DNA of 64,000 nucleotides from Coptis chinensis (lineage: Eukaryota; Streptophyta; Magnoliopsida; Ranunculales; Ranunculaceae): assembly GCA_015680905.1 (NCBI GenBank), contig CM027382.1, positions 13,303,501-13,367,500 of the forward strand. Direction: 5' to 3'. Position numbers and translations under genes: made by a program. The notes below the pieces were generated by a model. That model was not told where the DNA came from. It did no database searches and saw nothing but the letters and a program-made list of their open reading frames with translations. Positions 9,134-44,158 of this stretch are shown here, piece by piece; position 1 is the stretch's first letter, and each line of letters opens with the position of its first letter.

Positions 9134-11860
9134 CTACCAATAATCCCCACAAGAGCAAGATCCACTTCTGAAATGATGGAAACGGTGCACATCCCGCACT
9201 ACTAATTTCCTTGCTGTAACGAGAGAAGTCAACTTCAAGAAAGTGTGACAATCGGTGCACACCCTTAAGTTTTTCATGACATGAACTGGTACACACCCAG
9301 GTAAGCTCAGCAACCCAAAAGCAACTGCAAGTTTCTCACTATGGTAGCCCCAGGATTCCTCAGAACCATTCTTATTTATGTAATCACCTGTATCTTCAAT
9401 CTTCTTAAGAAGCTCTTCTAACTTTCTACGAACATCATTGATTTGTGGGTGGTCTGTATCATCTACAGTGAACACATGTATCCTGTTCCCAGCTTCAATC
9501 CAGCTACAACCAGGATTTTTCCTAATGCCTCTTTCTCTCATCAGTTTCCTCACATCTGAAAGGGCATTCAGATTTCCCGAGTCTGCATACAGGTTGGCTA
9601 GCAGGACATAACTTCCTGAATGTTTTGGATCCAACTCAAACAAATGCTTCACAGCACAATGTGCTAAGTCTGCATTACCATGGGTACGACATGCACTAAG
9701 TAAAGCTCCCCAAGCACCAGCACATGCTTCCATGGGCATCTCATCAATCATTTTCTTGGCATCCTCTAGCAACCCAGCACGTCCAAGAAGGTCAACCATA
9801 CAAGCAAAATGCTCTGAAGTTGGAGATATACCGTGATCTTTTGTCATGGAATCAAAGTACTGTTTTCCTTCCATAACGAGTCCCGAATGACTACAACCTG
9901 ATAGAACAGCAACATAGCTTATATGATCAGGGGCGAGACCTGATTTCAACATGCTCTCAAAAATCTGCACTGCTTTTGTTCCTTGGCCATTTTGAGCATA
10001 CCCTGAGATCATGGCGTTCCAAGAAATTAAGTTCATCTCACTTATTGAATCGAAAACCTCCTGTGCTTCTTCAATCCTACCACATTTTGAGTACATAGTA
10101 ATCATACCATTTACAACCGATATGTTCGCATCAACTCCAATCTTTGTAGTTTGAGCAATGATTTGATTGCCAAGTCGTAATGTGGCTGAATCAGCACAAG
10201 CGCCAAAAAGAGTTGCATATGTTGTCCAATCTGTCCGGACGCTTTCCCTTAGCATCACAGTGTATAACTTGAATCCTTCTTCCCAATGCCCATGCTGTGT
10301 GTATGCAGCTAACATGGAGTTCCAAGTAATGACATTCCGCCCGGGCATACTGTTGAAACATTGACGGGCGTTCTCAAGATCACCAATTTGAGAGAATGCA
10401 GTGAGCATTGCTGTCCAAGATATGATGTCTTTAGCAGGCATCAACTGAAACACATGATGTGCAGTTTTAATCTTTCCACATTTAGCATACATTGTCAGAA
10501 GAGCATTAGCTACAGGGATGGCAGACTCAAGTCCGATCTTAATAGTATAAGGATGGAGTTGAGTCCCTAAAGAAACATCCTTTATACTAGAACATGCTGC
10601 AAGAACCGTAGCAAGTGTGAACCTATCTGAGGCCATTGGCACTTTTCTCATTTCAATAAATAGCCCCATAGCTTCTTCTTCTGACCCAAACTGTGCAAGT
10701 CCCCCAATAAGAGTAGTCCACGAAACTGTATTCTGTTCAGGTAAGCTATTAAATACTTTCTTAGCAGCTACCAAATGTCCACACTTTGCATACATATCAA
10801 TCAAACCACTACCCACATAGACATCAATAGAAGATTTTGATCTAATGAACCGAGCATGCAAATGCTTACCCCAGTATAAATCATGAATACTTGCACATGC
10901 ACTAAGAACACTAGCATATGTCATGGAATTCGCTACAAAGCCTTGATTCCACATTTCAATAAACATAGAAAGAGTCTGAACGCCATACCCATGTTGCGAC
11001 AAGATTGAAATCATCGTGTTCCATGAAACATTATCTCGCTCTGGCATCCTATGGAACATATCAATTGCAAGTTCTACCCGAGATCCTTTCGCATAACAAT
11101 ACATCATACTGTTATAACAAAACAAACTCGGCCTAGAAATCATACGCGATACTTTCTCAGCGTAACCCATTGCTCCACATTTAATGTACATATCAAGAAT
11201 CGAAGTTTCCAGAAAAGGGTCTCTTCCAAAACCAAACTTCTTAACGAGACAATGCAATTGCAATCCTAACTCAAGCAACCCCAGACTTCCACACGCCTTC
11301 AAAACACACGACAAAGAAAAAGGATCAGGCTCACAACTAAAATCCCTCATCATTAAAGCAAACACATTTAAAGTCTCCCCACTTTCTCCATTCTGAAAAT
11401 AACCCGACATCATAGAATTCCAAGACACACAATCTCTCTCACCCATTTCATCAAACAGTTTTCTAGCTTCCTTCATTCTCCCAGAATCAGCTAACCCACT
11501 TATCATAGTATTCCAACTAAACACATTACGTTCCTCAATCTCCTCAAAAACAAGTATAGCATCATCAACTAATCCACACTTTGAGTACATGTTCAACAAA
11601 TGGTTTTGAAGGAATATCGAAGAAGCAAAACCAGTGGAGATTAAATGTGCATGGAGTTTTTGAGCATTAGGTATTGTTCCACAAGCTTTCATAGCTTCAG
11701 AAAGTGTTTTGGAGAATTCCATGTAAGGTTTTTGTTTGGAGAAGTTGAGGTATAAAGAGTTCATGCTTTCTTTTGCGTGGCTTTCTTGGTAAATATAACG
11801 AACTAGTTGTTGTTGAGTAGTTTTGCATTTTGAGCGGGTGCATGGAAACTTTAAAAACAT
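9134..11860 (-). CDS. Pentatricopeptide repeat protein, PLS-E-DYW class (908 residues)
   Basis: PLS-class PPR-DYW proteins bind organellar transcripts and act in C-to-U RNA editing; the DYW domain is the cytidine deaminase. The reading frame is intronless, as usual for the family. Residues 1-55 are basic and poor in acidic residues, suggesting an organelle (probably mitochondrial) presequence. An alternative start is Met33. From about residue 58 to 680 there is an uninterrupted array of PPR motifs, seen as repeated VVSWNTMI/AYAKCG-like words (NVFSWNTMISGLADSG, YAKCGKIKTAHHVF, NLISWNAMISGYAQNG). E/E+ motifs follow. The DYW domain starts at NPGCSWIE (about 782), has the catalytic HSE at 840-842 and zinc ligands CTDCH at 868-872, and ends CSCGDYW. 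All key deaminase residues are present. The edited site cannot be told from sequence alone. A broken copy of its 5' end lies at 28456-31815. Confidence 0.93.
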   Translation of the reverse strand: MFLKFPCTRSKCKTTQQQLVRYIYQESHAKESMNSLYLNFSKQKPYMEFSKTLSEAMKACGTIPNAQKLHAHLISTGFASSIFLQNHLLNMYSKCGLVDDAILVFEEIEERNVFSWNTMISGLADSGRMKEARKLFDEMGERDCVSWNSMMSGYFQNGESGETLNVFALMMRDFSCEPDPFSLSCVLKACGSLGLLELGLQLHCLVKKFGFGRDPFLETSILDMYIKCGAMGYAEKVSRMISRPSLFCYNSMMYCYAKGSRVELAIDMFHRMPERDNVSWNTMISILSQHGYGVQTLSMFIEMWNQGFVANSMTYASVLSACASIHDLYWGKHLHARFIRSKSSIDVYVGSGLIDMYAKCGHLVAAKKVFNSLPEQNTVSWTTLIGGLAQFGSEEEAMGLFIEMRKVPMASDRFTLATVLAACSSIKDVSLGTQLHPYTIKIGLESAIPVANALLTMYAKCGKIKTAHHVFQLMPAKDIISWTAMLTAFSQIGDLENARQCFNSMPGRNVITWNSMLAAYTQHGHWEEGFKLYTVMLRESVRTDWTTYATLFGACADSATLRLGNQIIAQTTKIGVDANISVVNGMITMYSKCGRIEEAQEVFDSISEMNLISWNAMISGYAQNGQGTKAVQIFESMLKSGLAPDHISYVAVLSGCSHSGLVMEGKQYFDSMTKDHGISPTSEHFACMVDLLGRAGLLEDAKKMIDEMPMEACAGAWGALLSACRTHGNADLAHCAVKHLFELDPKHSGSYVLLANLYADSGNLNALSDVRKLMRERGIRKNPGCSWIEAGNRIHVFTVDDTDHPQINDVRRKLEELLKKIEDTGDYINKNGSEESWGYHSEKLAVAFGLLSLPGCVPVHVMKNLRVCTDCHTFLKLTSLVTARKLVVRDVHRFHHFRSGSCSCGDYW

Positions 11861-12131
11861 TCAAAACTACCAACGTAAAGGTTTCTACGATCTATTCACT
11901 TGTTCATATTTTTGTGGGAAAAGTGAATACGCAATTTCGCTGAAATATTGGATATCTCGGCGAAATATTTTGGTTTTTTGAGAATCTGGAACGAATATAT
12001 GAGTACATTCACTGCACCATAGTTACAGGAGTGTCAACCACCACTAGCACTGCTAGTCTGCTATAAGGAGACCAACTGGGCTGCTAGATTTATAAAAGAC
12101 TCTCCAAAGATTTATAAGAGACTTTTTTTTT
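11861..12131. other. PPR gene upstream region
   Basis: Presumed promoter and leader of the PPR gene on the minus strand. The part 11861-12005 is also present, diverged, at 28663-28710 and 31708-31815, so it was duplicated together with the gene's 5' end. No clear TATA box. Confidence 0.45.
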
Positions 12132-25868: not shown

Positions 25869-27619
25869 TGATAAAACGTTAAATTGTACGTTTTGGTTTT
25901 ATACTTAAGTCCGAAGTCCGAAGACCAAAGTCCAAAGTCCAAAGTCCGTATAGTCATTCGTTTAGTCAAGTTACCTTACTCACGTGGGTTTGGTAGGATA
26001 GGTCGAGTAAGGGATCGTCCAAACCTTAAGGCTCGGCAAGGTTTACATCTGGATTTACAATTTTTGGTGAGTAGGATTTTAGGTTATTTAGTTGGTTTAA
26101 GTAAATTAACAGTAATGCAAATAATGTAAATAAATAACGGTGATTTCGACGTAAATAAACAAAGATAGAGAAACAGAGAGAGGGTTAATCGTATTCATAC
26201 AAGAATCATTTTCAACAGTTTATACTACCATATCACTACAGCTCTAATCCGTCTCGAGTTCATAGACAAACTCGAGACGACGTCGAGTATCGATCCCTAG
26301 CGAAATACACACATCTCTGAGCATATCTTACTAGCATAAGGAGTTGAACTAATATTTCATCTCTGGAATATCATTTCAGCTCCTGGTTCGATTCTACATC
26401 AGCTGGACAAATTGGAGAGCTATCTGACATCAAAGAGTCGCGCGCGAGACTGTTCTGGAGCATCAGCACTCCAAATTTGTATAGTCTCAATCATTTTGGG
26501 ACCGGATGTATAATCTACACCTAATTCCTAAGTAGTGATTCTATAATATTAAAGTGTCAATCCGGATTCTCACACGAGCAGCATAACCCTCTCCTTGAGG
26601 GGGGGGAGGGGATTAGCTCATAGTCATTGGAGGAATAATTAAACTTGTTGTATACAATAAATAAGTAAATGCAGGACAGGAATTAAACTTGAAAAGAAAT
26701 GACTTTTATTAAGAAGAAAGACTTACAATACTGAAGCTGCTGGAAGGGAAAATGACGGAATGTAAACTACCTACTGGAATGAAGCTACAGACGATAAACT
26801 AAAGCTAACTAACTAATGAGCAAAGACTAAAGCATAAAATGCTGAAGGAGAAATATTGAAGACCCCCCTCACATATATATATAGGCTGGTCTCCCTCGTG
26901 AAGCCTTTTAATCTATTTCGTCCTTTTAATTTGTTAAATTGAATCCTTCAAAACTTTGAAATACAAAGTTTTGTCTTTACCTTGTTTACTTTGCTTTTTG
27001 TCTTTTCCTCATTTGTATTCCTTCCAAAGTTTTGTTTAGGAAACAAAATTTGCAATTAATGTTTTGTCTACAGCCAATTCAATTCAAACATTGAATTGAT
27101 ACGTGTCTTTTCCTTTTGCAAGGTGGCACAAAATTGTGACCATCACTTGCCACCTGTCTATGCTGACTCGTCATGCCTTTTGGGCCCACAGAGTGGGTCC
27201 ACGTGGTGTGTCTAGTGGCGGCGCCGATTTTGGCGTTTTTACAACTTTCTGTCTTTGCATAGAATTCGTCACCCTGATTGCTCTGGAAGTTCACTAGCCG
27301 AAGTCGGCATCCAGGTTTGAAAGATGTGAGCTTCGGAAGTTTGCTGCTTCTTTACATGTGGACCCGTTCTGCACTGGTTTTGTTCCTTTGGAAACATCGG
27401 CTCTAGTCAGGCTTTGTTGGGATTCACTGGGGCTGTGTCGAAAGACTTCAAATATTCTAGTATTCCCGTACTTCGATGCATGTTTTATCATTATATTCAC
27501 GTTAACTGCGGAAACCTGCAAAAGTACGAAAATATAATTATTACATGATTATTAATAACATAATTGACCAAAATGCTATGTCTCTCGGGATTTAATATTA
27601 CAGTTTTGGGTGCTTATCA
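25869..27619 (-). repeat. 5' LTR of the Athila-type fossil
   Basis: Partner of 17971-19720. The primer-site-like sequence lies just below 25869. Confidence 0.92.
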
Positions 27620-28179
27620 ACCAGTCAAATGGTAATCTACAATTTTTGTTACCGAAAACCAGAGTAACTAAGGGGAGCCGGATAAGACTAACTCGAGAAG
27701 GTGTAAATTCACTATGTTTTCTATAAATATCCGTCTCCAAGTTCTTTTCCAATTTTTTTTTTTTTTTTTTTTTTTAATTTTATTTTGGTAACAACTAACA
27801 ACCTTACCCTTTACATGTATGTAGAAACTAGAAACAATGTTAGCATGTACATGTAGATTTGAAGAATTGCATTAAAATATATGGAAAGTTAGCTAGAGCG
27901 ACAGAGATCGATCACTTTTATTTTTTTGAGAAGGAGACCACTTTGAATGGGGTATTCTAATATCTTATTTCAAATGAAAAGACTTAATGATGAAAAACAC
28001 AGAGAAAAGAAGAGAGAATCATACACCATTTTAAAAATTGAAAAAAAAGTAATAAAACACTTTATTGGGGTTAATGTAACTGGGCTCTTTGGTTAGTCTA
28101 GTTTTTGGTAACGAAAATTGTAAATTACTATTTGACTTGTCATAGAAATTCGAAAATTCAGTTCATAGGTAATTTTCCG

Positions 28180-28710: not shown

Positions 28711-28974
28711 GATGGTTACTATCATGATGCACGTGCATACACACGTGTTTTTACGCCAACCTAATTGTATAAGTATTAGCATATCTAAAATGGTGCAAGT
28801 CTGTATATGTTCATGATTTTGGTAATTGTCACTCTATGTTTAAATCGATGTTGGTGAAAATTGTAAATCAAGATATGTTAGGGGAGTTGAAAAACCATAT
28901 ATACCAATGCAAAAAAACCAAATATCAGATAAATATACAGATGCAAAATATCACATACATAGTAGTCAGTAAAA

Positions 28975-29080
28975 AACGCATAAGAAAATAAAAATTGCCC
29001 CATAGCATGTAACATAGTTGATAGCAAAAATTGCCCCATAGAAGGCATAAGAAAATAAAAATTGCCCCATAGCATGTCTT
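28975..29080. repeat. Short repeat, AAAATTGCCCCATAG, three copies
   Basis: The word lies near 28990, 29027 and 29058; two copies are followed by CATGT. It is inside the Helitron. Confidence 0.7.
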
Positions 29081-30509
29081 GAGATTGCCAAGTTTCTGCT
29101 GAGGTTACTCCAAAAAACTTATAAGTCTATTACAACTCCAAACAAAAATTTGAAAAAAGAGGTCCAATGCTTGGGACTTTATCTTTTTGTTGCTAATCCA
29201 GATCATCTGATTCATTTCTCAGCTTTCTCATCAGTACTAAGTTATTGTCTAGCTACAACTTTCCAACAGAATTACAACTATCTTTGCTTCTAACCTCTTA
29301 GGCACTCAGCTTCAAAGGTACCTTCTCACTCACCATTTTATCTGCAGTATCCAGAATCCTTAATGTAGTTGCAGCGGTTCCGTTGCTTGCTTTCCTATGA
29401 AAAGCACCACTGCACCAACATGATTTTTAGACCAATCATGCTGACAATATGACCTTATATATTTATTGCAATACTAAGTTGAAAGTATCCCAAGACTTGA
29501 ACAAAAGCTAAAACAATATGTATTGGGGAGAGAGAACTAAAATTGAAAAAAGACCGCTACTCCTCACCCTCATGAATAGAATCTTTTATTGAAACATAAT
29601 CCATAAATTTTTGACTATTGAAATTAAACAAAATTGAAAGTAATTTTTTTATTTTGTAACTTTTTCCTTTGATTTTTTAAATTAGTGCTAAGTATGTACT
29701 AATACCATCAAAACATTATTAATGTCTCTGTAAGTATCATGGTTCTCATATATAGCAGTAAGCTAAAACTTTCATAACTAAGAAAGGAGGAACTCAGGCT
29801 GATTTTAAGAAACTATTCCGACCACTATAAAGAGCTTGAAAGGCTTACAAATGACCATTGTATATAGTCGTTGTAGAAGGATCAAGTTGTGTCATACCTT
29901 GTGACAATGAATTCAACATACAGACATTTGGGAAATTAGATATGAGCACAAATTATCAAGATGTTATGTCTAACCACTACATGGTTACAATCCTGATCGA
30001 GAAACTGAAAGTTGATAACAAAAAAATGATACAATGACACAATACCCCCATTTCTACATCTTTGCGCAATATAAATGGTTCTTCTCTATATCATGTAATA
30101 ACTGTTTTTATCTATCCCATTTATTCCTCAAATTTTTATGTGACAAAACCCTACCATCTCCTTCCCTAGACTTTACCATCGATCGCGACTTCACCCTCAT
30201 TTCTTCTATACTAACTGAAATGCTTAATTTATTCAAGCCACCCTCTACATCTGTTTTATCTTTTATCAATAGTATTTGAAATGCTCCACTATTGAACTCA
30301 GTATTATATGACTCACGCGGATAAGTAACCCTCTTTCTAGACCTCCTCCTATAATCATTCCTTCGATTCCCCTCAGTTTCATCCTCTAAATTCTCGTTCT
30401 GTCCAAGCCCATAAGGTTTAACATTATGACCAACGCCTTTCGGAAAAAACCTCACCGAAAGTAAACCATTTTCAGTCTGAAACAATTAAGAACTATCTCT
30501 ATCAGACCA

Positions 30510-30586
30510 TCTTACTATATTAGAAAAATATGGGGTATGAGGATTAGTGATTTGGTGTCACGTTTGTGTCCGTCACAGGGACAAAA
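30510..30586 (+). mobile_element. Inverted copy of the Helitron 5' end
   Basis: TCTTACTATATTAGAAAAAT on the plus strand, preceded by A. With the following 57 bases it matches the reverse complement of 31624-31700, including TTGGTGTCACGTTTGTGTCC. It therefore forms a long inverted repeat with the 5' end of the enclosing Helitron. Either it is the start of a second, oppositely inserted and truncated family member, or an internal inversion. Confidence 0.75.
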
Positions 30587-30865
30587 CCATAAACCATAAC
30601 CACCATGCTTATGAAACCTATCAGCTAAAACCTTCAACTGTTCATCAGCACTAACTGAAAATAGATTAGGTGCTCGTTCGACAACTTCCTGACGGGCACT
30701 TACATGAAACCTCATCACACGCTCTCTTTCAGTGGCAATTTGCTCATCACTCATATTTTGTTTATATTCTCTATATTGCAAATGCCAACATTCTTTTCGA
30801 ATCTCTAGCTGTTCCTCAGTCATCATCTGGCGACACTCTCTATATCGCTTTCGCTTTCGCTCCAA
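30515..30865 (-). CDS. Basic, RKRY/MTEEQ-repeat ORF inside the Helitron (116 residues)
   Basis: Opens MERKRKRYRECRQMMTEEQL and repeats the pattern (YREYKQNMSDEQIATERERV). Such basic repeats with MTxEQ words occur at the start of plant Helitron helicase-like proteins, so this may be a remnant of one; that is an inference. The last 30 residues are read from the inverted Helitron-end sequence, so the natural C-terminus is lost. Not likely to be a working gene. Confidence 0.35.
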   Translation of the reverse strand: MERKRKRYRECRQMMTEEQLEIRKECWHLQYREYKQNMSDEQIATERERVMRFHVSARQEVVERAPNLFSVSADEQLKVLADRFHKHGGYGLWFCPCDGHKRDTKSLILIPHIFLI

Positions 30866-31089
30866 CCGATTATTATTACTATTTGATTTGTAGCTGAATT
30901 ATCATCCATTTTAAATCAAATGGCAGTTACTACCAAAATTAAATAAGGCAAGAGAGATAAACAATTAGTATACTAACATTCTCACAGGAAGATTAATGTG
31001 TTTTAACATATATAAGTTTCGTAATTATTCAAAGTCAATTACTTTTAAACTGCATTAAAATTTGTCATACTAACTTACAAAGAATTACT

Positions 31090-31200
31090 ATCTTCATGCT
31101 GTTCAAAATGAAAGAAAGAAGGTATCGGCTTCTTCTATCTCATCCATTTGCTTCATTTGAAACTAAAATTAAAGCAAGAAGGTATCGACTTCTTCTACCT
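31090..31200 (+). repeat. Two-copy repeat, about 65-bp spacing
   Basis: AGAAGGTATCGGCTTCTTCT near 31117 recurs as AGAAGGTATCGACTTCTTCT near 31178, each followed by a related ATCTCA or ACCTCACC stretch. Confidence 0.6.
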
Positions 31201-31707
31201 CACCAAAGGATTTCTTATTGGCAAAATTGATTATACAGAGTTTGTTAGAGTTATTGATAAAGCTTTACCTTCAGATGATGATGATGATATCGGTTCGCGA
31301 GCATCCCCAACTATCTTCCTATTTTCTGATCTGGTTGAAGCATTAGAGAAATCAAAAGTGTTTATTAATCTGTAATCCCATTTAGTTGCCCCTTATAACC
31401 TTTTGATCCTCAAAGTGATTAAGAATGGCTGTAAGTATTGATTTTGAAATGACTTTGGACATAATTCTTGGATGAAATTAGGAATGAAGGAGATTCGGTG
31501 GAGGCGTGGAGCAAGAAGATGAGATATCTAAAAGTTGCAAATGGGAGAAATGGGGAGACCGAGAGAGAGAGCGATTAGAGAGAGGAAAAATCGAGAATTA
31601 GGTAGAAGCTAATGAAATTACAATTTTGCCCCTGTGACGGACACAAACGTGACACCAAATCACTATTCCTCATATCCCATATTTTTCTAATATAGTAAGA
31701 TGTGAGA

Positions 31708-31815
31708 ATGTGTTGTGTGTGGAGTAAAGACGTAATTTCGCTGAAATATTTGATATCTCTGCGAACTTTTTGGTTTTTCGAGAATCTGTAAGTCTGGAAC
31801 GGATATATTGAAAGT
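31708..31815 (-). pseudogene. Duplicated upstream region of the PPR gene, part 2
   Basis: Matches the parent at about 11908-12005: AATTTCGCTGAAATATT, GATATCTC, TTTTTGGTTTTT and GAATCTG with GGAACG-ATATAT. Together with 28456-28710 it forms one copy of about 350 bp split by the Helitron. Confidence 0.8.
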
Positions 31816-33713
31816 TTCGACAGTGGAAATTTGGTGAAATGTTGTTTGTTATCGTTTTCTGGTTTGATGTGAACGCTAATATATATACACTAGAATAACA
31901 TGATTCTTGTTCACGCAGAATTTACTTTCAAATTCTAGTTTAGTGCATTCAAATATTGAGTTTATTTTCTCATTAAAAAAATAAAAAATATTGAGTTTCT
32001 TTTGCATGTATAAATAAAGATTTCTGTGTTACACAAATTTGACAACTCCTTCACTCGGTTGATATGACCTTCGTTAGCCTATTGTTGTTTAAAGAGTGTG
32101 GTACGCCTTTCAAGTTAATTCATCCACAACATAATTTCTATGTTTCTGAATTCGAATCAAGTGTCTTCAATTATAATGTACAATGTCTGGGAAGATCATT
32201 CATTACTATAACTTGAGATTTTGGAGGAAATTGATGTATGTCCGTTTGAATTGTTGGAAAGAAATATTGTCTTGGTCCTAGCAGAAGATATTGATGCTTT
32301 GGTTACAAGATAGATATGAGTTTATTACGGTATACTATTATTTGGGTGGTATGAAAAACAAAAAATAATCATATATATATTTTGGAGTACTATGCTAGAT
32401 GTTAAATAGCTGCTGTGGTATTGGATGTCCACTACATATCAAATTATAGGTTCAAAGAACTTGTTTTATACAAGAGGATGCTGGTACTTGGAGGGTAGTT
32501 TGTTTGTTTGTTTTGTTTTATTTGTAAACAAGTGAGTACTCACTCTCTGTTTTACATTTTGTTTTGTTTTGTTTTGTTTTTTTTTTTAACTTTTGTGGTA
32601 TGCACAACCCTCTTAATAAAGATCACTTATAAAAAAAAACATAAATATTGTCTTCTCCTCATTTTTCCAGCATTATGCATTTACACTCGTATGAGCACGT
32701 AATTAAATTATAAAATATGGAAAGAAAATCAGAAAGAATTTACTTAGAACCATAACACTAAAGCTATATACTATCATCACTAAAATCCAAAGATAAATGA
32801 AGCTTTATTTTAATTCCAAACATAGTTTCATAGGAGCTTTCCCAATGCGCATCACGAAGCAAAATTTTAACTATTTCTTCTAATTCTTAACTTTAGGAAG
32901 ATTTGTTGCCCACTAATTGCAAGGGTACATCATGTGTAATATTCGGTTGTGTAATGCAGGTGTAGGTCTGCCTATACCATAACATTTTTGGGGAAAAAAT
33001 TACTATTGATCTCTATAGGTAATATACATCCCTTAAAATTAGACAAACAGGTCTGCGCTTAACAACCCTCATAGCAGTATAGCACTACAGCAGCATTTAG
33101 TCAGAAAGTGAACCATCCACCACACGGACCTAAAATTCCTATCTGTGAAAAAATGCTGCAGTTTATAAAATGATTTACCAAATGCTACAAAATTTCCCGC
33201 TCGTACTTCTCACAATTTACAAACAAGTAAAACAACCAGAAGAAAATGGCTCATGTAATTGCGTAATCATAATTCTATAATAGATCATGAACACAATTGC
33301 AAACTTGAAAAAAGGTTGCTGCTAAAATTAATATTTCATATACGCACTGTGGCCTGATCGAGCTACTATAGTATCACACACTTTACATTCCACAAATATT
33401 TTCAACATACAATGTTGCATGAGGCAAAACCATATATCCTCAATGTTAAAAATGGTTACATTAAATTTAAGCTGTTGGTCACAATATTGAACTTGAACCG
33501 AAGGGTATCTGTCTCTCATCTGTTTGCGAGACCATGAGAAGAAAATCCAGAAAATGGTTGTAGAGCAGAACTGTTGCTTTCATTACATGCTTTTCCATTG
33601 GAGAATCAATTCCAGTAGGAAGAGGCTTCCCCAGTCTTCTCGGTGATGAGTGCTTCTAGTAAAAAAATAAGTATGGTTGACCTATTGGTCACATTTTAGA
33701 AGGACTTAAGCTA
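31816..33713. other. Intergenic, AT-rich
   Basis: Contains a (GTTTT)n microsatellite at about 32557-32590. No gene or element with ends was recognised. The right end holds the presumed 3' UTR of the phosphate carrier gene. Confidence 0.5.
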
Positions 33714-36700
33714 TCACTTCACTTCTTGCAAACGGCTAGGAAGACCTCCACTAGTTGGCCTGAAAAATTTCCAATGAATCATAGTAATAGTATGAACAAT
33801 AAAAGATGGACATAGATGGTTTTTTTGGGACATGGCATTTTTTTACATTCTCTTAAATTAACCACATTTTTTCAAGTCGTAGCCAATAATTCTGTTACAG
33901 GGTACACATTTTGTATTTTGTTTATATTCTGAACTAAACTAGGCATTAATGATTATTTATGTCAACTCTCAATAAAGTCCACATAAGCAAATTACAACAA
34001 GGGGTAGAAAATAGTCAAGAGTGATGGAGTTGTTCACTGCATGAACCATATTAGTGACATCCCTTCTCCACCTCTCTACACGTATGATATAGAAGAGCTA
34101 TTAACATTACAATGAATCTGCAAATGAATTCATGATCATGAACAAGGAACTCTAAAAATGAATGACTAACGTCAATAACGAACTTTTACTGCGATATAGC
34201 ACCATAGAGAAATAATGGGTTTTACACATGTACTTGTCATCCATTGGACCAACTGTTAGTTCAAAGATCTTAAAAGACCTCAACAAACATTGAAAACAAT
34301 GAGATGTATTGTTCAGGAAAATGAAATAGTGGTTATGGCAATATGGGACAGGCCAAGCAATTCCAGTTACTTTCTTTTGTTTTATTGGACAAGAACCTTC
34401 AGTTTATTCTTCATGAGATATTCATTTTAGTTAAAAGTCCAGGTATATTTGACCCATATAACAACAGAAAAGACCTAGGCGGCCGCAGCATTTCCCTCGT
34501 GAATGGAAGAAAGTAGGCAGAAATCGTAAGTATGAGAAATTTCAATAATATGCTCATAACATTTACTTACAGTCCAGTTAGCACTTTAATGGTGTCGTAC
34601 AAGAACCATTGTGAAGTTACGACGGGTCCGACAAGTGCAACTCGAATAGGAAGACTTCTTGTAAACAAATTTACAAAACCAATGTTCTTCACAGCCTGAC
34701 ATACCAGAGAGCAAATATTAGTACTTATATTCTAACTGAACTTTGGATTCAAGAAGTTAAAACTAAACCAAAGAATGTCAAAAAGCATTTTGAGAGAGAA
34801 CCTGCATCACAGTGTCAGCCTTCTTGTTATACAGAGAAGAAACAATGTTGTCTGCAGGATTAGAAACAAAAGTACCAACAGCTCCGGCTGCATAGCCAGC
34901 TGCACATGTCACTGCAAGTTGCTGAGCTCTAGAGCAATCTTCCTTTCTTCTTTGAATCATATTACTATATATGAAGTCCACAGAATGCTCAAACGTCGAG
35001 AACATAACAATTGAAACTGTAAAACACAAGTCTAATGAGATTAGTATGTAATAGAATACCTATCTAGGCAAATGAGACAAACGAAAAGTTGATAGTCCAA
35101 GTCACATATACTAATAGTAAGCTCCATTTGTGAGATATCTTAAGTTTTCCTGTCCAAGTACATAACACGGAAATGCGAAAAAGAAGAAATAGAACAATGC
35201 TCATCAAATGTATATATGCCCACTAATAACCAAGATTTTTGTACATTATATAGCTAGTGGGTAGAAAGAACAAGGCTGCCTTTATAAATCAGAATCTGGA
35301 TGAAGTACTGCATCCACTCAAATGTGGCAATACCAAAACAAGTAATGGTAGATCTACAGTAGTTTAGAACCAACACAGTAATCTACAGTAAGTACAGTAC
35401 ATCCCACATTAAAAATTTCCTAGTTCATCACAACTTCTTGGGCACGTCATCTCACAGGTCGAATTCAGGAAGCGTAAAACAAAAGGAGGATTATATGACG
35501 AATAGGAAAGATTCTGGGACCATATCTTCTTCATGAAGTGAGGTCAACAAAAAGTATGCATCTTAGTTTCTCATTTGGCGCGATACATTAAAGAATACAC
35601 CCAAACCTCTGCATATTTAGTATAACAGGTCACAATGGAATATACATATATTCCAAAAGAAAAAAAATGAGAATGAGAATGAAAATGAGAATGAGAATTA
35701 CATGGAAGGTTACGTCCCCAGAGTGGAAGTAGGCCTTTATAGAATCTGCAGTGGAAGAAAATATTCTTTAACACAAAAGTAAATAGAATCAGAGAAAGGG
35801 GAAAAAGGAAATGAGAGAAATAAGAATTTGATTTGTATACCCAAAGACACCTTCAGTTGCATATAACTTTGGGAATCCATCAATCAAGCCCTTTCCATAA
35901 TAAGGTTTTACTTGAACACGGACTTTTACAGCTTCAAAAGGGCAGAGGGCAACATCAGCAAATACTTGAGCAGATGCACTGCTCGCAAGGAAGATGAGGC
36001 TCTTATCATGGCCTACTAACGCATCTGAATAAAACTTCTTGAAGTACTCATAAAGGCCAAATTTGCAGCCACCTTGAGCACCATAGCCGAACAATTTGCT
36101 ACCCCAACCTCTCCAAAGCGCTGGAGCACCTTGTTCCCTCCAGAGAGAATTGAAACCTGAATAAATGCTGTGGTACTTGACAGGGTTCACCTAAAACGAT
36201 GAATTTATTAGGTCCCCTTAAGATACCAACAATTATCAAAAGATAAACATGTTCATGAGAGTGGAAATATGAGAGGGAAAGAGAGATACAGCAGACAATA
36301 GCAAATATTCAACACCAAATGCAGAACCTCCATAACTATTAGAAAGGCATAGAAAAATAACGATGATCAAATTTAAGGGAAAGGGTCGTTACTAGGATAG
36401 AAAGGGAAGGCTTTTGTATTTTTCCCTGTACATTAGAATCTAATCAGTTGCTTTAGAATCATAGTTCACCAACATAAAAATCCCATTATCATCATCACTC
36501 AAGTCCTGTAAGTTGTAACATCTATCTGGGTGCCATTTGAAGGACATATTTTCACCGTTACATTCTACTGAGATTCCTCTCCACTTGTCCATTTCTAAGG
36601 CATAGTCACTAAAAATCGGTTGTCCAGTACCATGAGCACATCCTACAAAATTCCAGTCATCTAGAACTAAAACTTAACCAATGAATAAACTATCTGAAGA

Positions 36701-37307
36701 GCGACTCCCATTTACATATTTCCCTCGTTCCTGCAATATGTGCCTATATATCTCCTTTTTTGGTAGCAGCCTTTATAATCTCTTGTTTACAAGTTTTGCC
36801 ACTATTAAACATTAACACAAAAATCAGTAGACTATCAGGTAGACCATGAACTTATTTCGAACTACGGGCACTAGTAAGTTATAAAATGGAACATGGAAGC
36901 ACGGTCCTAATTGGTTGCTCAATTTTCATTAGTTGATAATTACGCAAACATACAAATACAATCAACAATTCCTAAATGCTATAACATAATCATGAACAAA
37001 CATGCAGGGGAGACACTCATTCTTCATAATCAACACTATGTAATCTGATTGATAACCATTCGTCGAAAAATCATAAATCAAAAGGGGCATCGTCAAATAC
37101 AAGCATTGAGTAAAAAAAATGACAAAAACAAACCTGCATATTAACTTTCAAAACATCAAGAGGAGTAATAGCAAGATGAGTTGTTCCAGCACTTAACATT
37201 CCACTGACTGTACATATACCATAATACCCAGCTGAAAACTCCTCACATATTCTCCCATCAACTCTTCTTCTCATTTTACTTTCCATTTCTTCCACCATCA
37301 ACCCCAT
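33714..37307 (-). CDS. Mitochondrial phosphate carrier (MPT1/PHT3;3-type), 6 exons
   Basis: This inner-membrane carrier imports phosphate into mitochondria with protons (or in exchange for hydroxide), feeding ATP synthesis. Coding exons on the minus strand, all with GT-AG introns: 37307-37134, 36190-35841, 35745-35702, 35016-34802, 34695-34571 and 33759-33714. They sum to 954 nt, so 317 residues, normal for the family. The three carrier repeats are visible with signature words PLDVLK (49-54), PFEAVK (142-147) and a degenerate PADNIVS (243-249), the last as usual in phosphate carriers. The product ends with PTSGGLPSRLQEVK. I chose the start MGLMVEEMESKMRRR; Met4 is an alternative, and an in-frame open stretch extends upstream without family likeness. 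The sequence resembles Arabidopsis MPT1 (PHT3;3) more than MPT2/3 because it lacks a long presequence. No damage seen. Confidence 0.92.
35667..35699. repeat. GAGAAT/GAAAAT microsatellite in intron 3 of the carrier gene
   Basis: About five near-perfect hexamer copies just downstream (minus strand) of exon 3's donor site. Confidence 0.7.
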
Positions 37308-37611
37308 ATCTCTGTATATAAAGTCACCTACAAAGTAATGTTGATAAGTCAAGAAGAGAGAAAAGAGAGGGGAACATGTGGAGAAGGAACGGTGAGCAGT
37401 CTTTTGCCAAGGAAGGAAGGCTTCGAGAGAGTGTTTGAATGAATAAGCAAGTATGTGTATGTAATACACTAGCTGGGAATTTGTCCACGTTTACATGGAC
37501 AAAAACACAAGGCTTAAAACAGAGACCAACTCTGTTGTTTTCATGTGGCTCGTTTAAAAGCTGCTTTTTGTAATTTATTGAGATTTTAGAGTTAAAAGTG
37601 TGTAAACCCCT

Positions 37612-37620
37612 AAACCCTAA
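37612..37620 (-). promoter_or_regulatory. Telo-box upstream of the phosphate carrier gene
   Basis: AAACCCTAA, about 305 bases upstream of the start codon. Telo-boxes work in either orientation near transcription starts of growth-related plant genes. Role inferred. Confidence 0.35.
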
Positions 37621-37708
37621 TTAGTCCAGAGTACTTTGACCCTTTTAGGGTTGTTTTGGGCATATTATAGTGAGTTTACTAGTATAGAGTACAGAGTTAA
37701 AAACACAA

Positions 37709-38140
37709 GGGTTGTTTTTTATGATGAAACACTATGAAAAGGAAAGGAAAATAAAATGGCCCAATCTTTCCATAGTTTATAAAGGTGTTTGTTTTACTGG
37801 AAAGAAAATGGGAACGCTTTTCCATATGGAAACAAAATTATTGAAATGGAAAAAGTTTTTTGTGTCCTACTAACCCCTCAAATTTTTTGTGGAAAGGAAA
37901 GGAAAAGAAATAAATAGATAGGGACTTACTACTAATACACCTATGACCCAACAATACAATTATTCATTTTCCAGCTTTTTGCAAAACAAACATAATTATT
38001 CCTTTCCCCCAGCTTTTTTTACTTTCCTTTCCACCAAACACATACCATTTAAAATTATTTCTTTTTCATTCCATTCCATAGTGGACCACCCATTTTATTT
38101 CCTTTCCATTCCATGAGTTAAAATTTAACAAACACACCCT
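37709..38140. mobile_element. MITE of about 430 bp
   Basis: The ends are inverted: left GGGTTGTTTT followed by GGAAAGGAAAATAAAATGG; right, in reverse, GGGTGTGTTTG followed by GGAAAGGAAATAAAATGG. The arms are about 50 bp and the core is non-coding. A target duplication was not settled. Confidence 0.55.
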
Positions 38141-38887
38141 AAATTTTTCATATAAGCAAGCTATAAAGACTATTATTATGTACATTTTATGAAAAAGTAA
38201 GTTAATTAATATATGAATTCGTTGCAACTTTCTCCACTTTCTCCAAAAGTTTAGAAGATGCATGATTAAATTGGGGTTCCCTTGCTTTAAAACATCCAAG
38301 AGAATTATTGGCAAGTGGCAACAGCATTTTCTTATATAGTTGCACTTTGAGCGAGCTATTAAAGCAATGACCTGCATATATGTATTCGCAATGAGCTTTC
38401 CTGCGTCTCAAGGTCGGTCAAGGAGTGAAAGATTTTAGTCAAGAGTCAAAAGAAGTTATCAAAATTTTATCAATTGAGCTAATTAATTGGTGATGGACCG
38501 GCTACTGTTTCTCAATCATACACTCATTTTCCACCGCTATGGCAATATTTCTTATGGAGAGTGCCGCAACATTTAATCCCTGCTAGCTATTCATCCAGTT
38601 TTATCGCCATCCACATTTACCTCTATCCATTGATTGCCAGGAGAGCAATCGTGATTCATGAAGGCCTTAACAATAAATTTTTTGAGACTCTTCATTGATA
38701 AAACGAAAATATCACCATAGAAAGTTTAATCTGTGTTACTGTGTACATAGGGACTGCAACAGTGCAACCATGCTACAGATTCCATTGCTAAATGCCAGCA
38801 TCTAATACTCCATATGGTAATGTAGTGTTTTTGACTTTCCTCCGCTCTGTTCAGAGTTATTATCTGTACATAGGGTCAGTCATAGGG
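38141..38887. other. Intergenic, nothing recognised
   Basis: No gene, RNA gene or element with ends seen. Confidence 0.4.
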
Positions 38888-39569
38888 GTGACTTCGGATC
38901 GGAATTCTTTTTTCGGATGACAATATCTTTTCCAAATCTAATGTAATTATTTTTCTATGGCAATTTCTTTATGAATTTTCGAATTTGGAATGTTCAGAAA
39001 TCGAATTTTTTTTGGAAATTTCAAAATCGAAAGTAAATATGAAATTTGAATTATATAATCGGATTCTCTTTTAGGAAAACCATTTTTTATCCAGTTAATA
39101 CATTCATTTAGCAATCATTTTGAAATGTATTAATTCAGAAAATAACTTAGACCTTTTAACATGTTCATTCAACAAGTTTTTTCTTCATGTTAATGCATTA
39201 ATTCAGTAAATAAGAAGATGAGAGAAAGAGAGACATGCGCTAGAATGACAATATATATTGATTTTTTTGAAGTTGTGAGAGAGACAATGTTCTATTTCTC
39301 TAGGGTTTTTATTTGGTTTATAAACTATATGTAGTTTTTAATTTAGTAACTATATGAAATAAACAACTATATATTAAAATTTTGGAAATTAATCGGAAAT
39401 CAGATCAAATCGGATTTTGAAAACACATCCAATTCTGATCCAATTATTTTTTGAAAAAAAATCAGATATCGAAATTTGGAGATCGGAACACAAATATCAT
39501 TTAAATTCCAAAAAATATCGAATCGGAATTCAAAAATATCGGGTTTTTGGAAAAAAAAAATGGCTCCCC
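38888..39569. mobile_element. Possible hAT-like MITE with AATCGGA words
   Basis: Left end TAGGGGTGACTTCGGATCGG and right end (reverse) TAGGGGAGCC are similar, and the interior is full of CGGAATTC, AATCGGA and TCCGAT-like words in both orientations. A convincing 8-bp target duplication was not found. Confidence 0.35.
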
Positions 39570-39719
39570 TAGTACTCATACATAACCTACTCTTAAAAAA
39601 AGTTAAAATAAGATTTCATCCGGGATACTACGTTGGTTCTGGTTCTGAATCTATCTTTACTTGTTTTGGTATTGTGACATTTGACTGGATGGGCAATGTA
39701 CTTCATCCAAACTTTAATT

Positions 39720-39946
39720 AGAATATTGCGAGCTGTCCCAAATTTTGTGAACAATGCGGAGTCGAATTTAACTGACCATTTGGTGCAAACACGCGACTTG
39801 GACCAACTGCACCCCAAATCAGCCCCATACTAAGCAATAAATGATCACCAGGGCATGTCCAAGGGCTTCCCTTCGGAAGCTTTTCTAGATCACAAATGTT
39901 ATCCACAGAGGACAGAAGCCACCAGGCCGAACACAGATTAGCTGTA
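39720..39946 (-). pseudogene. Oligopeptide transporter (OPT) gene fragment
   Basis: Encodes AWWLLSSVDNICDLEKLPKG followed by SPWTCPGD, and WGAVGPSRVF: the conserved block of plant OPT-family proton-coupled peptide transporters (AWWxL...GSPWTCP...IWGxxGP). The 5' edge TTACAG directly before CTAATCTG looks like an intron acceptor and abuts the Helitron 3' end at 39947, so the Helitron probably landed in an OPT intron. The next part of the protein is not found downstream. A matching later piece lies on the other strand at 62133. A broken gene. Confidence 0.75.
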
Positions 39947-41718
39947 ATAGCATTATGCACGTGCGATGCACGTATTAACAATACATCCACAACAATAAAA
40001 ATCTTAACAATATTGTTCAATACTATTTACTCTCAAAAACACAAGGGGGAAAAGTTGGGAAATTAACTGAGGTAGGAGACAACAACTCAATAGAAGCGCA
40101 CCTTACATACAAAGATTGTACCATATATCAGAAGTGGTTGCCACAAAGTTGTGGGCCAAACTTGTTGTCCTTCACCTCTTAAAATTCAATTTCCCTTGAA
40201 TGACGCATCTCATTTGAACCTTATCTACACTGTATACTTTGTAGTTTGTACTCATTCTTAGTGTTGGAGGTGCTTGAGGAGGCTCTCGCATCAAAAGTTT
40301 ACTTTATGCTGGTACTGGACTCTTTTAAAATCTCTGACGATGCAATGGATGATAGCTTGCGTAACTCCTTTTTTAATTTCTGTAAACAATTGAATGTGTT
40401 AGAGATGAAATTATACATGATTAATTTACCGGCAGCAAAAGAACTAATCCAATTATGGCAACTGCAGCATAATGTAAAAAGGGCAAAAGATAATTTCAAT
40501 GGGCCACATTGGTTCATTGCATTCACCAACAGTAGCAAAAGGGTTGATGACAATCTCAGCACCATTCAAACCGAAGGCTAACCAGTTCAAAGGATGGTGT
40601 CTTCCAGATCATATGTTAACAACTATCTTCCCATATGCAGTATCAAACACATGGTATGTGATTCTGTTGCACATACCATTCAGAAAAAGTTCAAACAACA
40701 TCAGTACTCACTATGACCATATTATATTTTTGTGCCAGGTCTTAAAGAAATTGGATCGATTCCCCATCGACTGGCTCAACAAACTCACACCATCTGTTCT
40801 CTTTGGTACAAAATGCAAACAACATTGTCCATGCCTCTTGGGATCAAAATATAAACACATTTTGAAATATTAATATTAGATGGAAATACATCTATGTATA
40901 ATATTTGTGGATGTCGCAATTATGTAAAATTATTCATATACATAGTTTGTCTTCGTTAGTGACTCACTTGTAAGCATAATACATTGACTCTTGAAGTGCT
41001 TGCAACATCTATAAGAGGTTTCACTTTCTCGAAAATGACTCTATTCTGGTTTGAAAAGGGTGTAGTGGTGGGAAGAGCAATAGAGTTCTGAATGAGACCT
41101 ACTCGAACCATGCATTCGAGGCTCTCATAAAACTTCTTTTTCATCATAGAAACAGAAGGCCTACAAAAATCAAGAGAAGAGTCACTATATTACGACAAAA
41201 CCCACGGTGAAAGTTACACTTGTGTATGTACGTGAGTTTAGGAACTACAACAATGTTTCCAATAACCTGATCATGCATATCTTACCATTTACCTTGACAT
41301 ATACGATGACACAAATCTATCAGTGCCTTAGCTGGCTTTTTGGCAAAGCCAATTTATACAACTCATGAAAGGATTCTGGGATCATATTTTACCTGCATGT
41401 CGAAGTAATATTTTGAAGATAGATCAATTGCAGAATCAGGGAGACCGGATGATTCAAGTGGTTTTCCACCGTTTAGTCCTGTGAGCATGCATCTCAATTC
41501 CATCAAAATAATTAATTCTTGCAAAATAATTAACTAAAGATTAGAGTGTGTATTCCCTAGTCCCCAGTACCCACCCAAACAAATCAGTAATAGTATACTC
41601 AATTTGGACAGAGGAAATTGAAATTACAAAATTGCTATCCTCGAATTGTATGAACACAATGAGCAATATTATGCAAAAAACACATACCCAGATCCCATAT
41701 TTTCCTAATATAGTAAGA
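39947..41718 (-). mobile_element. Helitron, 1772 bp, with captured gene exons
   Basis: On the minus strand the 5' end TCTTACTATATTAGG at 41718 is preceded by A. The 3' end is ACGTGCATCGCACGT (hairpin) then GCATAATGCTAT at 39947, followed by T. The hairpin plus CTAG-like terminus matches the 3' end at 28719. It carries parts of a beta-ureidopropionase gene in the Helitron's sense direction. No Rep/helicase is seen. An alternative is that the 3' end belongs to a longer element starting at 43421. Confidence 0.65.
40490..41118 (-). pseudogene. Captured beta-ureidopropionase (PYD3) exons
   Basis: Three successive blocks of the nitrilase-family enzyme that ends pyrimidine catabolism are seen in gene order: VRVGLIQNSIALPTT with NVLCLQ (about 41118-40970); EAWTMLFAFC, RWCEFVEPVDGES and QKYNMVIV (about 40838-40700); [30 protein letters not shown] and EPMWPIE (about 40680-40490). 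They are separated by intron-like sequence; a GTGAGT donor directly follows LCLQ. So this is a DNA-level copy, not a retrocopy. It lacks the start and the last third of the enzyme. In block two an in-frame stop falls inside the coding part, and the catalytic Cys segment of block three is altered (the normal NICYGRHHP reads with a stop), so it cannot make the enzyme. Confidence 0.8.
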
Positions 41719-43421
41719 TATACTTTCAACATGAACAGAACATTTGATATTTATTCTCTTACATTCTCATGAGTATTCCTCTATGTGCGAACAATAGTAG
41801 TCATTTGGATAACAATCACATAGAAGAAATAAATATATATATATAGAAAGTGGCGAGAAATTCAAATCTTTAAGAACAGTGTTTGCCTTCTCACACTACC
41901 AGATATGAGTCATCATGTACACCATGAATATGAATAAGGTCAGGAAAAATGAGAGCAACTCCACATAGAAATCTATAGGTAAATTTCATATCAGTGTCTA
42001 GAGAAGTAGCAACTTCTCAATGACATACATAATCTCACAACACATAATAATGCACTGACAATCAGGATTTTTAACCCCCGCTTAGTTTGGAAATCATACC
42101 CCAAGACCTTGGAGCTAACCTCCAAAGGCCTGATTCCTTCAAGCTGTGAATATTAAAAATTATGCCATAAGTATAACTTACATCAGTAAATCTCGGGAGC
42201 AGACATGATTTGCCAAACACCATAATATCCAATGAGCAAAAGCTTGAATAGATAATCACTACAAAACGGCGCCACAAAATTTGTTTCAGCTATATATATT
42301 TTAGATTCAAGATTGAAAAAATCATATAGTATTCCTTTACGTGTGAATAGTACCGGTCGAAGGTTGTGAATAATACCGGTCGGAGACCAAGACAGGGCGA
42401 ATAATGAGAAATTGCAAACACGAAGCGGGGAATATTCGAGAAATCTACAGAGAACCATTAGATAGTGAAAAGATAAGCATTTAAATTTGATAGAGGTACC
42501 TCTGTAAGCTTGTTTACTCAATCGTTGAGCAATTTCATACTTCTCCATATTCAAAGCACACTGCCATTTTTGAAATATGCCAAACAATTATTTACCACAA
42601 ACAAAAAGGGTATGCCATAAATAAAAAATTTCTAGTAGCGTACATGCACTGTAGTTGCCAAATCTAAATGAAAAAAAGAACACTGAGATACCCTCGTAAC
42701 CCTCGTTAGTGCTTTCACTCTTCTCTACACTTGTATCCACTCACAAATTAAAGAGTTGCTCACAACAAACTCATGTTATTTTATCGACTATAGTTTCATA
42801 AAATTACATAAAGTCCTTTTAACTTTTATTTCCTCAAAAATTAACTAAAATTGAAATAATTTATTGTAAACAATTTATTCAACGAATGATAAAATGACAA
42901 AGAGAACAATGAGAAATTTTCTAAAAATAGAAGAAGAAAAAATCCTTTTTAGTTGTAAATTTAACATGAAGGAGATAAAGCAAACAAAACGTACTTGCTC
43001 AAACTTCAATTACATATTCAAAACACAGAGATATTGAATAAAAAGTAATGAAAAGAGAAAAAATCACTTTCGATCGTCTAGCTTTCTCAAGCTCGATATA
43101 TCATAAATCTCTTGCTCAAGAACTTCCAATGGAGAATTCAATTGCTTCGGCTACCTGAATCGTTTGCAGAGATGTATGCATAGGAAATAAATTTGATCAA
43201 TTCAACAAATAATTAATACGTAGATGAATCAACCATCCTATTATTGGAGATTTTAGAGAGAGAGAATAAGAGCGAGAATATTTGAGAACCGTAGAGATAA
43301 TACCTTCATATAGTGAAAAGACCAAAATACCCCCAAAATAGATAGAGAAATTACCAAATTGCCCCTGTGACGTACGTGAAAATACTATTCATCATACCCC
43401 ATATTTTTCTATATAGTAAGA
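41719..43421 (-). mobile_element. Helitron 5' part with a UVR-motif exon
   Basis: A third minus-strand 5' end TCTTACTATAT-AGAAAAATATG is at 43421, preceded by A, followed by a GACGTACGTGAAAA-bearing stretch (in plus sense) similar to the GACGGACACAAACGTGA of the first Helitron. No 3' end was found before 41719, so this may be the 5' part of a larger Helitron whose 3' end is 39947, with 41718 nested in it. ACCGGTCG occurs twice near 42352-42380. Confidence 0.5.
42502..42562 (-). pseudogene. Captured exon with UVR motif (ClpF/UvrB-like)
   Basis: A 61-nt exon bounded by GGCAG acceptor and GTACC donor encodes CALNMEKYEIAQRLSKQAYR. This is the UVR (UvrB/UvrC) helical motif as in plant ClpF-type plastid protease adaptors (ALNMEKYEIAQ...). 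Only this exon is convincing. The sequence at about 43152-43079, an exon-like stretch reading SPLEVLEQEIYDISSLRK in one frame, may be from the same gene or another. The donor gene is an inference. Confidence 0.45.
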
Positions 43422-43475: not shown

Positions 43476-44158
43476 TAGGGGTGTCAAAATGGCCCTCAAA
43501 CCCTTAGCCCACCCCGACCCGGCCCATGGGCCGAAAAAGCCCTTAAAATGAGGCCCTCACACATTCGTGGGCTGGGCCAACCCGGCTCTCAAGCTTTTGA
43601 GGGGAGGGTAAGGGCCTAGACTTTGAAACTTAAGCCCTCCCTTAAGCCCGACCCTCATTAGGCCCTCCACATTTATTATATATATTTTAATAAATTTTTT
43701 TACAATATATTTCATTTTAACATTAATATGCTAAAAATCACTTAAAAGAATGTTTATCTATTAAGTTTTCCAACCTTATAATTTCATTATAATATTTTAT
43801 GAAATGAATTTAACTGATCTTAATTGACTAATACAACTTTAACATGTTTTTGTAGTAGTTTAAAGGTTTAATTGTGAAGTGCATTCGATTTTATCATTTT
43901 TAATTAATGTTTCTAAATTTATTTTGTAAATCAAATGTATAACATAGTATCCGGCCCTCACGTTTGGCCCTCAAGCCCGGCCTTTCAAGCCCTCTCGAGA
44001 GGGTTGAGGGGCGGATAAAGGCTTCGAGATTTAAGCATTGGCCCGACCCGACCCGGCCCTAAAGGTAAATGAGGGTAGGGCTGGCCCGGCCCTCAAAGCA
44101 TGAGGGCTTCATTGTTTAAGGGCCGGGCCAGCCCATCCCAGCCCATTTGACACCACTA
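43476..44158. mobile_element. hAT-type MITE, 683 bp, with perfect 8-bp target duplication
   Basis: Ends TAGGGGTGTCAAAATGG and, reversed, TAGTGGTGTCAAATGGG. The 8-bp target duplication CTTAACAG is perfect (43468-43475 and 44159-44166), the hallmark of hAT transposition. The outer 200 bases on each side are rich in GGGCCGGGCC-type words in inverted order; the core is AT-rich and non-coding. Short enough to be a MITE; looks fairly young. Confidence 0.88.

Follow-up and report, generated by a model that had tools for sequence, protein, structure and literature searches.

Two non-autonomous Helitrons with repeated 5' ends in the genome of Coptis chinensis

We investigated a window of 64,000 nucleotides from Coptis chinensis (GenBank assembly GCA_015680905.1, contig CM027382.1, positions 13,303,501 to 13,367,500 of the forward strand; C6:13303501-13367500 in the 936 Mb genome searched here), for which a preliminary description had listed several Helitron ends. 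The window holds two elements on the minus strand, which we call A and B. We are highly confident that both are non-autonomous Helitrons and that related elements provide the Rep/helicase proteins that move them in trans. They are Helitrons of the ordinary kind, and their repeated 5' ends are probably explained by nesting and one stray 5' piece. In Helitron transposition, the protein makes its cut ahead of the 5' TC and displaces one strand up to the 3' hairpin and CTRR, which it then joins into an A^T target, leaving no duplication. Elements A and B would be mobilised in this way; the order of the steps is established knowledge, and the ends, the hairpin and the target are what we observed here. 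The outer ends and 3' structures of both elements are as follows, in window coordinates.

28719..31700, minus strand: element A, non-autonomous Helitron, 2982 bp, with its 5' end at 31700 and its 3' end at 28719 (copies ending at or near both, flanks, approximate empty site)
31687..31700, minus strand: 5' terminus of A, TCTTACTATATTAG, preceded by A (motif match and flank reading)
28730..28747, minus strand: 3' hairpin of A, 7-bp stem and 4-nt loop, 11 nt from the end (fold of a family copy's end; the letters of the window copy are identical in the hairpin)
28719..28722, minus strand: 3' tetranucleotide of A, ATAG in the window and CTAG in most copies, then T (3' flank reading)
39947..43421, minus strand: element B, a non-autonomous Helitron of 3475 bp that is probably chimeric, with its 5' end at 43421 and its 3' end at 39947 (genome copies, flanks, empty site)
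39958..39974, minus strand: 3' hairpin of B with a stem of 6-7 bp, 11-12 nt from the end; the window copy terminates in CTAT, other copies in CTAG or CTAA (folds and flank reading)

Ends and copies of elements A and B

Four 5' ends, each after A, had been described at 31700 (-), 30510 (+), 41718 (-) and 43421 (-). All four were present at these places with A before them; three carry exactly TCTTACTATATTAG, and the copy at 43421 reads TCTTACTATATAG, one T shorter. Both 3' ends, at 28719 and 39947, contain GCACGTGCAT and are followed by T. The hairpin and following T ascribed to them are there, and the CTAG-like terminus also ascribed to them is found in the copies, the window letters having mutated to ATAG and CTAT. 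When folded, the A and B hairpins were each equalled or bettered by 8 of 200 shuffles. Motif counts in the window did not exceed chance under the search settings chosen (3 matches with at most 2 mismatches, reached in 13 of 100 shuffles; 3 matches in a further motif run, reached in 14 of 100). Genome-wide, exact 5' 14-mers numbered 219 against 7 for a reversed control, and the 3' pattern GCACGTGCATSWTRCTAR, chosen only after the ends had been seen, gave 387 matches against 0 for its control. Pairing the 5' and 3' motif places by position gave eight same-strand pairs within 10 kb with the 3' end downstream, none with the 3' end upstream in the same orientation, and two on opposite strands. The pairing drew on 100 of the 387 3' places and on 63 of the 219 5' places, all from the stretch that the 3' list covers. 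Most exact 5' motifs in this sample had no exact 3' motif nearby, diverged ends being uncounted.

Element A was searched in the genome as two adjoining queries with 40 of 264 and 40 of 65 candidates scored, which makes the copy count a lower bound. There are at least 11 copies, namely the window copy, nine that match both queries to the 3' end, and C3:2281, which has no 3' end. One copy (C8:8211) has several kb between its two matching parts. Matches of the copies end at query position 68/69 and, in the best copies, at about 1222, which places them a few bases from 28719 and 31700. An exact ATC start was seen in 29 of 37 5'-end rows, 6 of the 29 being the inner inverted piece described below and many rows being other elements that share the 5' end; the query itself began with the A before TC, so this count is no unbiased test of the preceding A. 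At the opposite end, 17 of 20 A-type rows have a complete 3' end, always followed by T, and the other three break off earlier. The 17 complete ends read CTAG (14), CTAA (1), CTCG (1) and ATAG (1, the window copy), and seven of them (L050, L053, L054, L055, L057, L059 and L062) belong to relatives and not to A. No Pfam domain was matched in A in a scan at E values up to 0.01.

The search with B, for which 40 of 611 candidates were scored, returned two near full-length copies on C9, at 94 and 96%, and longer and shorter pieces on further contigs. Genome copies terminate within a few bases of 39947 and 43421. Flanking sequence was retrieved for 12 3' ends and 8 5' ends and read alongside the window copy. 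T follows the 3' end in 13 of 13 (L072 was read by eye from the opposite strand, its motif match having failed), with the tetranucleotides CTAG in nine, CTAA in three and CTAT in one, the window copy. A precedes the 5' end in 7 of 9, and the remaining two have T and a common flank, representing one duplicated insertion. The rows are not all independent, with L070-L071/L072-L073 and L074-L075/L076-L077 being duplicated loci. Two B copies on C3, at 110159086-110169344 and 110242578-110245763, share their flanks and form a duplicated segment, and one of them contains several extra kb. The only Pfam match in B was CN_hydrolase (PF00795) at window 40519-40656 (-), scoring 19.7 bits, below the cut-off of 23.2, at E values up to 0.01. 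It is possibly a captured gene fragment.

The sequence shared by the genome copies reaches A^TCTTACTATAT...CTRR^T, and at the family level the termini are TC...CTAG or TC...CTAA. The inverted-repeat listing contains no terminal inverted repeat pairing the two outer ends of A or those of B. Taking the four 5' ends as four separate elements was ruled out, as copies span 28719 to 31700 and 39947 to 43421. Only 31700 and 43421 are outer ends; 30510 belongs to an inverted fragment, and 41718 is a probable nested junction.

Insertion sites and relatives with Rep/helicase domains

Nine flank joins were made as empty-site queries and seven were searched (all except C7:7967 and C6:2531), the window B join being shortened to 126 bases. 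Five insertion sites have an empty counterpart, four of them at base level and the fifth, a paralogue of the window A site, approximately. The join of the A copy C7:8287 is spanned by one place at 94% and also by C3:97518542 (76%). For the A copy C8:8211, 15 rows cross the join with 60 bases or more on either side; three were read, and the single base adjoining the join is an indel. The join of the B copy C3:1102 is spanned by three places at 91-93% and by weaker rows, and the window B join has its empty site at C6:13448727. All eight empty places read, which represent four insertions, show A^T without target duplication at base level. The preliminary description had named target duplications as a finding that would speak against the family, and none occurs at these four insertions. 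Together with the genome copies and their flanks, these sites bear out the rule A^TC...CTRR^T under which the ends had been described, and they supply base-level Helitron insertion sites. The empty site that had been read for 28719-31700 beside a PPR gene corresponds to a real paralogue, with the PPR gene on the minus strand of the stretch.

11657..11991, plus strand: element-free paralogue of the site where A is inserted (alignment over the join with 364 columns, 79% identity and 40 gap positions)

Next, we looked at relatives that may supply the proteins. Helitron_like_N gave 157 reported matches in the genome, with 150 of 2000 candidates scored. Part of A is shared with other elements, one of which lies on C21.

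30719..30969, minus strand: stretch of A that is 75-81% identical to parts of other elements, including the Rep/helicase-coding one on C21 (genome matches)

The C21 element is predicted to code for Helitron_like_N, PIF1 and Pif1_2B domains (PF14214, PF05970 and PF21530), spread over several broken frames. Element A matches it at 75-76% in two body segments and reaches about 90% in a 48-bp stretch at the 3' end, and their last 30 bases agree in 26 of 30. Helitrons are placed in one family at 80% identity or more over the last 30 bp, a rule cited in PMC5714489. Judged by end sequence under this rule, A and the C21 relative are one family and B falls just outside it. Between A and B, compared through one CTAG copy of each, the 3' ends match at 18 of 30 bases ungapped or in 25 of 32 columns gapped, below the 80% level. 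Their 5' ends give 28 matches in a 31-column alignment of the first 30 bases. The earlier proposal of a single family thus holds for the 5' ends, which are common to both elements, and falls just short at the 3' ends.

In general, A and B resemble plant Helitrons in their TC...CTRR termini, the hairpin 11-12 nt from the 3' end, the A^T target, the lack of duplication and a relative with Helitron_like_N and PIF1. We see no essential difference from plant Helitrons and regard A and B as further families. The maize elements in PMC10095026 have the layout A^TCTATACTA...CTAG^T, as in A and B.

Several observations weigh against this identification. Eight of the 37 5'-end rows have no ATC start, their 5' ends being degraded, truncated or rearranged, and the one B insertion seen at two loci with one flank has T, not A, before TC. 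No spanning place was present among the matches listed for C7:1084, C8:9245 and C5:741 (three of the seven queries; 40 of 523 and 40 of 383 candidates scored). The empty-site alignment of the window A copy is gapped, so its junction is approximate. Finally, the autonomous Rep/helicase copy that the preliminary description had suggested looking for was found only as far as its domains. The C21 relative is degraded, no intact autonomous partner was shown, and an exact search and a loose one (best 17 of 26 letters) found no 5' terminus in the C21 element.

Element B as a probable chimera of nested Helitrons

39947..41718, minus strand: probable inner Helitron part of B, from an internal 5' end preceded by A (11 B copies align across; three relatives match only to the junction)
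41719..43421, minus strand: probable outer Helitron of the B composite, carrying a separate 5' end (portions of the 5' end region, and the 78-80 bp leading up to the junction, are also present in L103 and L104)

Element B is probably a chimera of nested Helitrons, because 41718 is a second 5' end located at an A^T site that is unoccupied in two relatives. Alignments of 11 B copies, the window included, cross 41718. Three further places (L103, L104 and L105) match B from the upstream side and stop exactly at this junction. L103 and L104 have 213 bp in common across it, at 91.5%, and L105 has only the upstream 47-48 bp in common. The junction reads GTATA^TCTATATA in L103, GTATA^TACATATA in L104 and GTATA^TCTTACTATATTAGG in B. 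The first bases of L103 past the join slightly resemble a 5' end by chance, but the sequence beyond them is different. L103 carries a 5' end of this type further upstream, and L104 carries a partial one. Apart from weak matches, the sequence on the far side of the junction in the relatives was not detected in B. A Helitron would have inserted at A^T within an older Helitron, and the composite would then have transposed as a unit bounded by the outer 5' end and the inner 3' end.

The internal 5' end could also derive from gene-fragment capture or from a 5'-only insertion, not from a nested full Helitron. Two observations favor such an origin: the 3' end of the outer element was not seen beside the junction, and none of 19 genome matches is a free inner part that starts at the 5' end with its preceding A. 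One place, C2:5171542, matches only 47 bp around the inner 5' end, with its flank unread. However, a regular Helitron 3' end closes B downstream, and L103 and L104 run on across the junction, and we think capture or a 5'-only insertion rather unlikely. Nesting has been proposed as the source of the multiple 5' termini reported for 17.6% of helA elements in maize, and the two 5' termini of B fit that pattern. The comparison differs in one respect, as the B junction was read against unoccupied relatives, whereas the detailed maize example has extra 3' ends. PMC3288121 and PMC6591975 mention multiple Helitron 5' termini, and PMC10095026 mentions truncated, tandemly arrayed rice elements.

An inverted 5' end inside element A

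30510..30586, plus strand: 76-77 nt Helitron 5' end, inverted inside A, with no 3' end, flanked by duplicated CCA/ACCA (alignment of A copies)

This 5'-end-only insert is the single point of note in otherwise ordinary elements. The window was compared in an alignment with 26 loci, several being overlapping retrievals of the same copy. The inverted piece is present in 8 of 11 A copies, the window included, and absent in three; a diverged relative, C3:1810 (83-85%), is also without it. The site reads CAGACCATAAACC without the piece and CAGACCA^TCTTACT...CAAAACCATAAACC with it. The insert consists of the first 76-77 nt of a Helitron 5' end, joined precisely at A^T, after which the target resumes with CCA/ACCA repeated. 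Additional short repeats are present at the far junction in some copies.

An inverted piece together with repeated 5' ends is what a terminal-inverted-repeat or foldback transposon might show, and a 79-nt inverted repeat, 96% complementary, does span 30508-31702. However, the three A copies without the inner arm still extend to the same outer 3' terminus and into the region of the 5' end, the outer 3' terminus is of the hairpin-CTRR type, and the four insertions read at base level have no target duplication. We give this explanation virtually no credence, and the absence of the inner arm in three A copies rules it out. Element A is a Helitron into which the piece was probably added, since a diverged relative without the piece makes gain the simpler reading; loss between short repeats in the piece-less copies is possible. 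The tree of A copies counts against this account, as it is star-like with low support and mixes piece-bearing and piece-less copies, and a single gain is unproven.

A second case occurs in the B copy at C6:76464837, which holds an inverted piece of 1.3 kb (C6:76467151) equivalent to window 43421 to 42120. Here, an exact TC follows the equivalent of window position 42114, beside a short inverted repeat, TTGGAG/CTCCAA. The base preceding this TC is G instead of A, the locus is rearranged, and about 7 kb downstream there is a remnant of 43200-43403 in direct orientation. The rearranged copy (C6:76464837-76475441, L091-L093) also includes roughly 7 kb bounded on each side by similar sequences of some 27 bp, perhaps a retrotransposon.

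Both cases fit one-ended transfer, and two cases are insufficient to establish it. We offer as a tentative possibility that Helitron 5' ends can be transferred alone, and that the A piece and C6:76467151 are one-ended insertions in which 5' strand transfer came before, and was uncoupled from, 3' processing. Our preferred reading of the A piece, held with less confidence, is that only the 5' end passed to the A^T target, after which the strand was broken and repaired. If one-ended transfer is true, the inverted placement within elements of the same families would suggest self-targeting. Template switching or break repair, with no part for a transposase, is a quite credible source of the A piece, if short of probable. 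The 3-4 bp duplication and the microhomology at the far junction are like break repair, only one case is clean, and tandem partial 5'-end repeats elsewhere (L045, L090, L036 and L103) resemble ordinary duplication. Yet the near junction of the A piece is an exact Helitron 5' terminus at an A^T dinucleotide, and the second case likewise begins exactly at TC. The four tandem loci were rejected as extra 5'-only inserts; their repeat units include flank or have no exact TC start, and ordinary duplication is therefore simpler. At L090 (955-1205, C43), two Helitron 5' ends of about 90-100 bp stand 159 bp apart with about 10 bp of flank in common, probably a tandem duplication.

Known systems offer partial parallels to one-ended transfer. 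For Helraiser, PMC4778049 states that the 5' end is required and the 3' end not strictly, that truncated products occur, and that 46 of 1,751 insertions lie outside AT dinucleotides. Helraiser truncations have new tetranucleotides beside T, whereas the A piece has no CTRR-like end and carries a 3-4 bp target duplication. In IS91 one-ended transposition, as described in PMC10701932, a single end suffices to start transfer, and one end would likewise start transfer for the A piece. Within the openly accessible literature, as far as its available parts extend, no 5'-only Helitron piece with an empty site was found. If such inserts are common, they bear on whether Helitron 5' transfer can precede 3' cutting, and a step of this kind is not easily observed when an assay selects for complete elements.

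Further features lie in the flanks of the two elements. In the flank of A, window 19320-19725 and 27220-27623 form a direct duplication of about 406 bp that is 94% identical. Beside B, window 43476-44158 is a transposon-like element with the ends TAGGGGTGTCAAAATGG and CCATTTGACACCACTA and an 8-bp direct repeat, CTTAACAG, on each side, which we take to be hAT-like. The B empty-site paralogue L102 aligns only from about the edge of this element.

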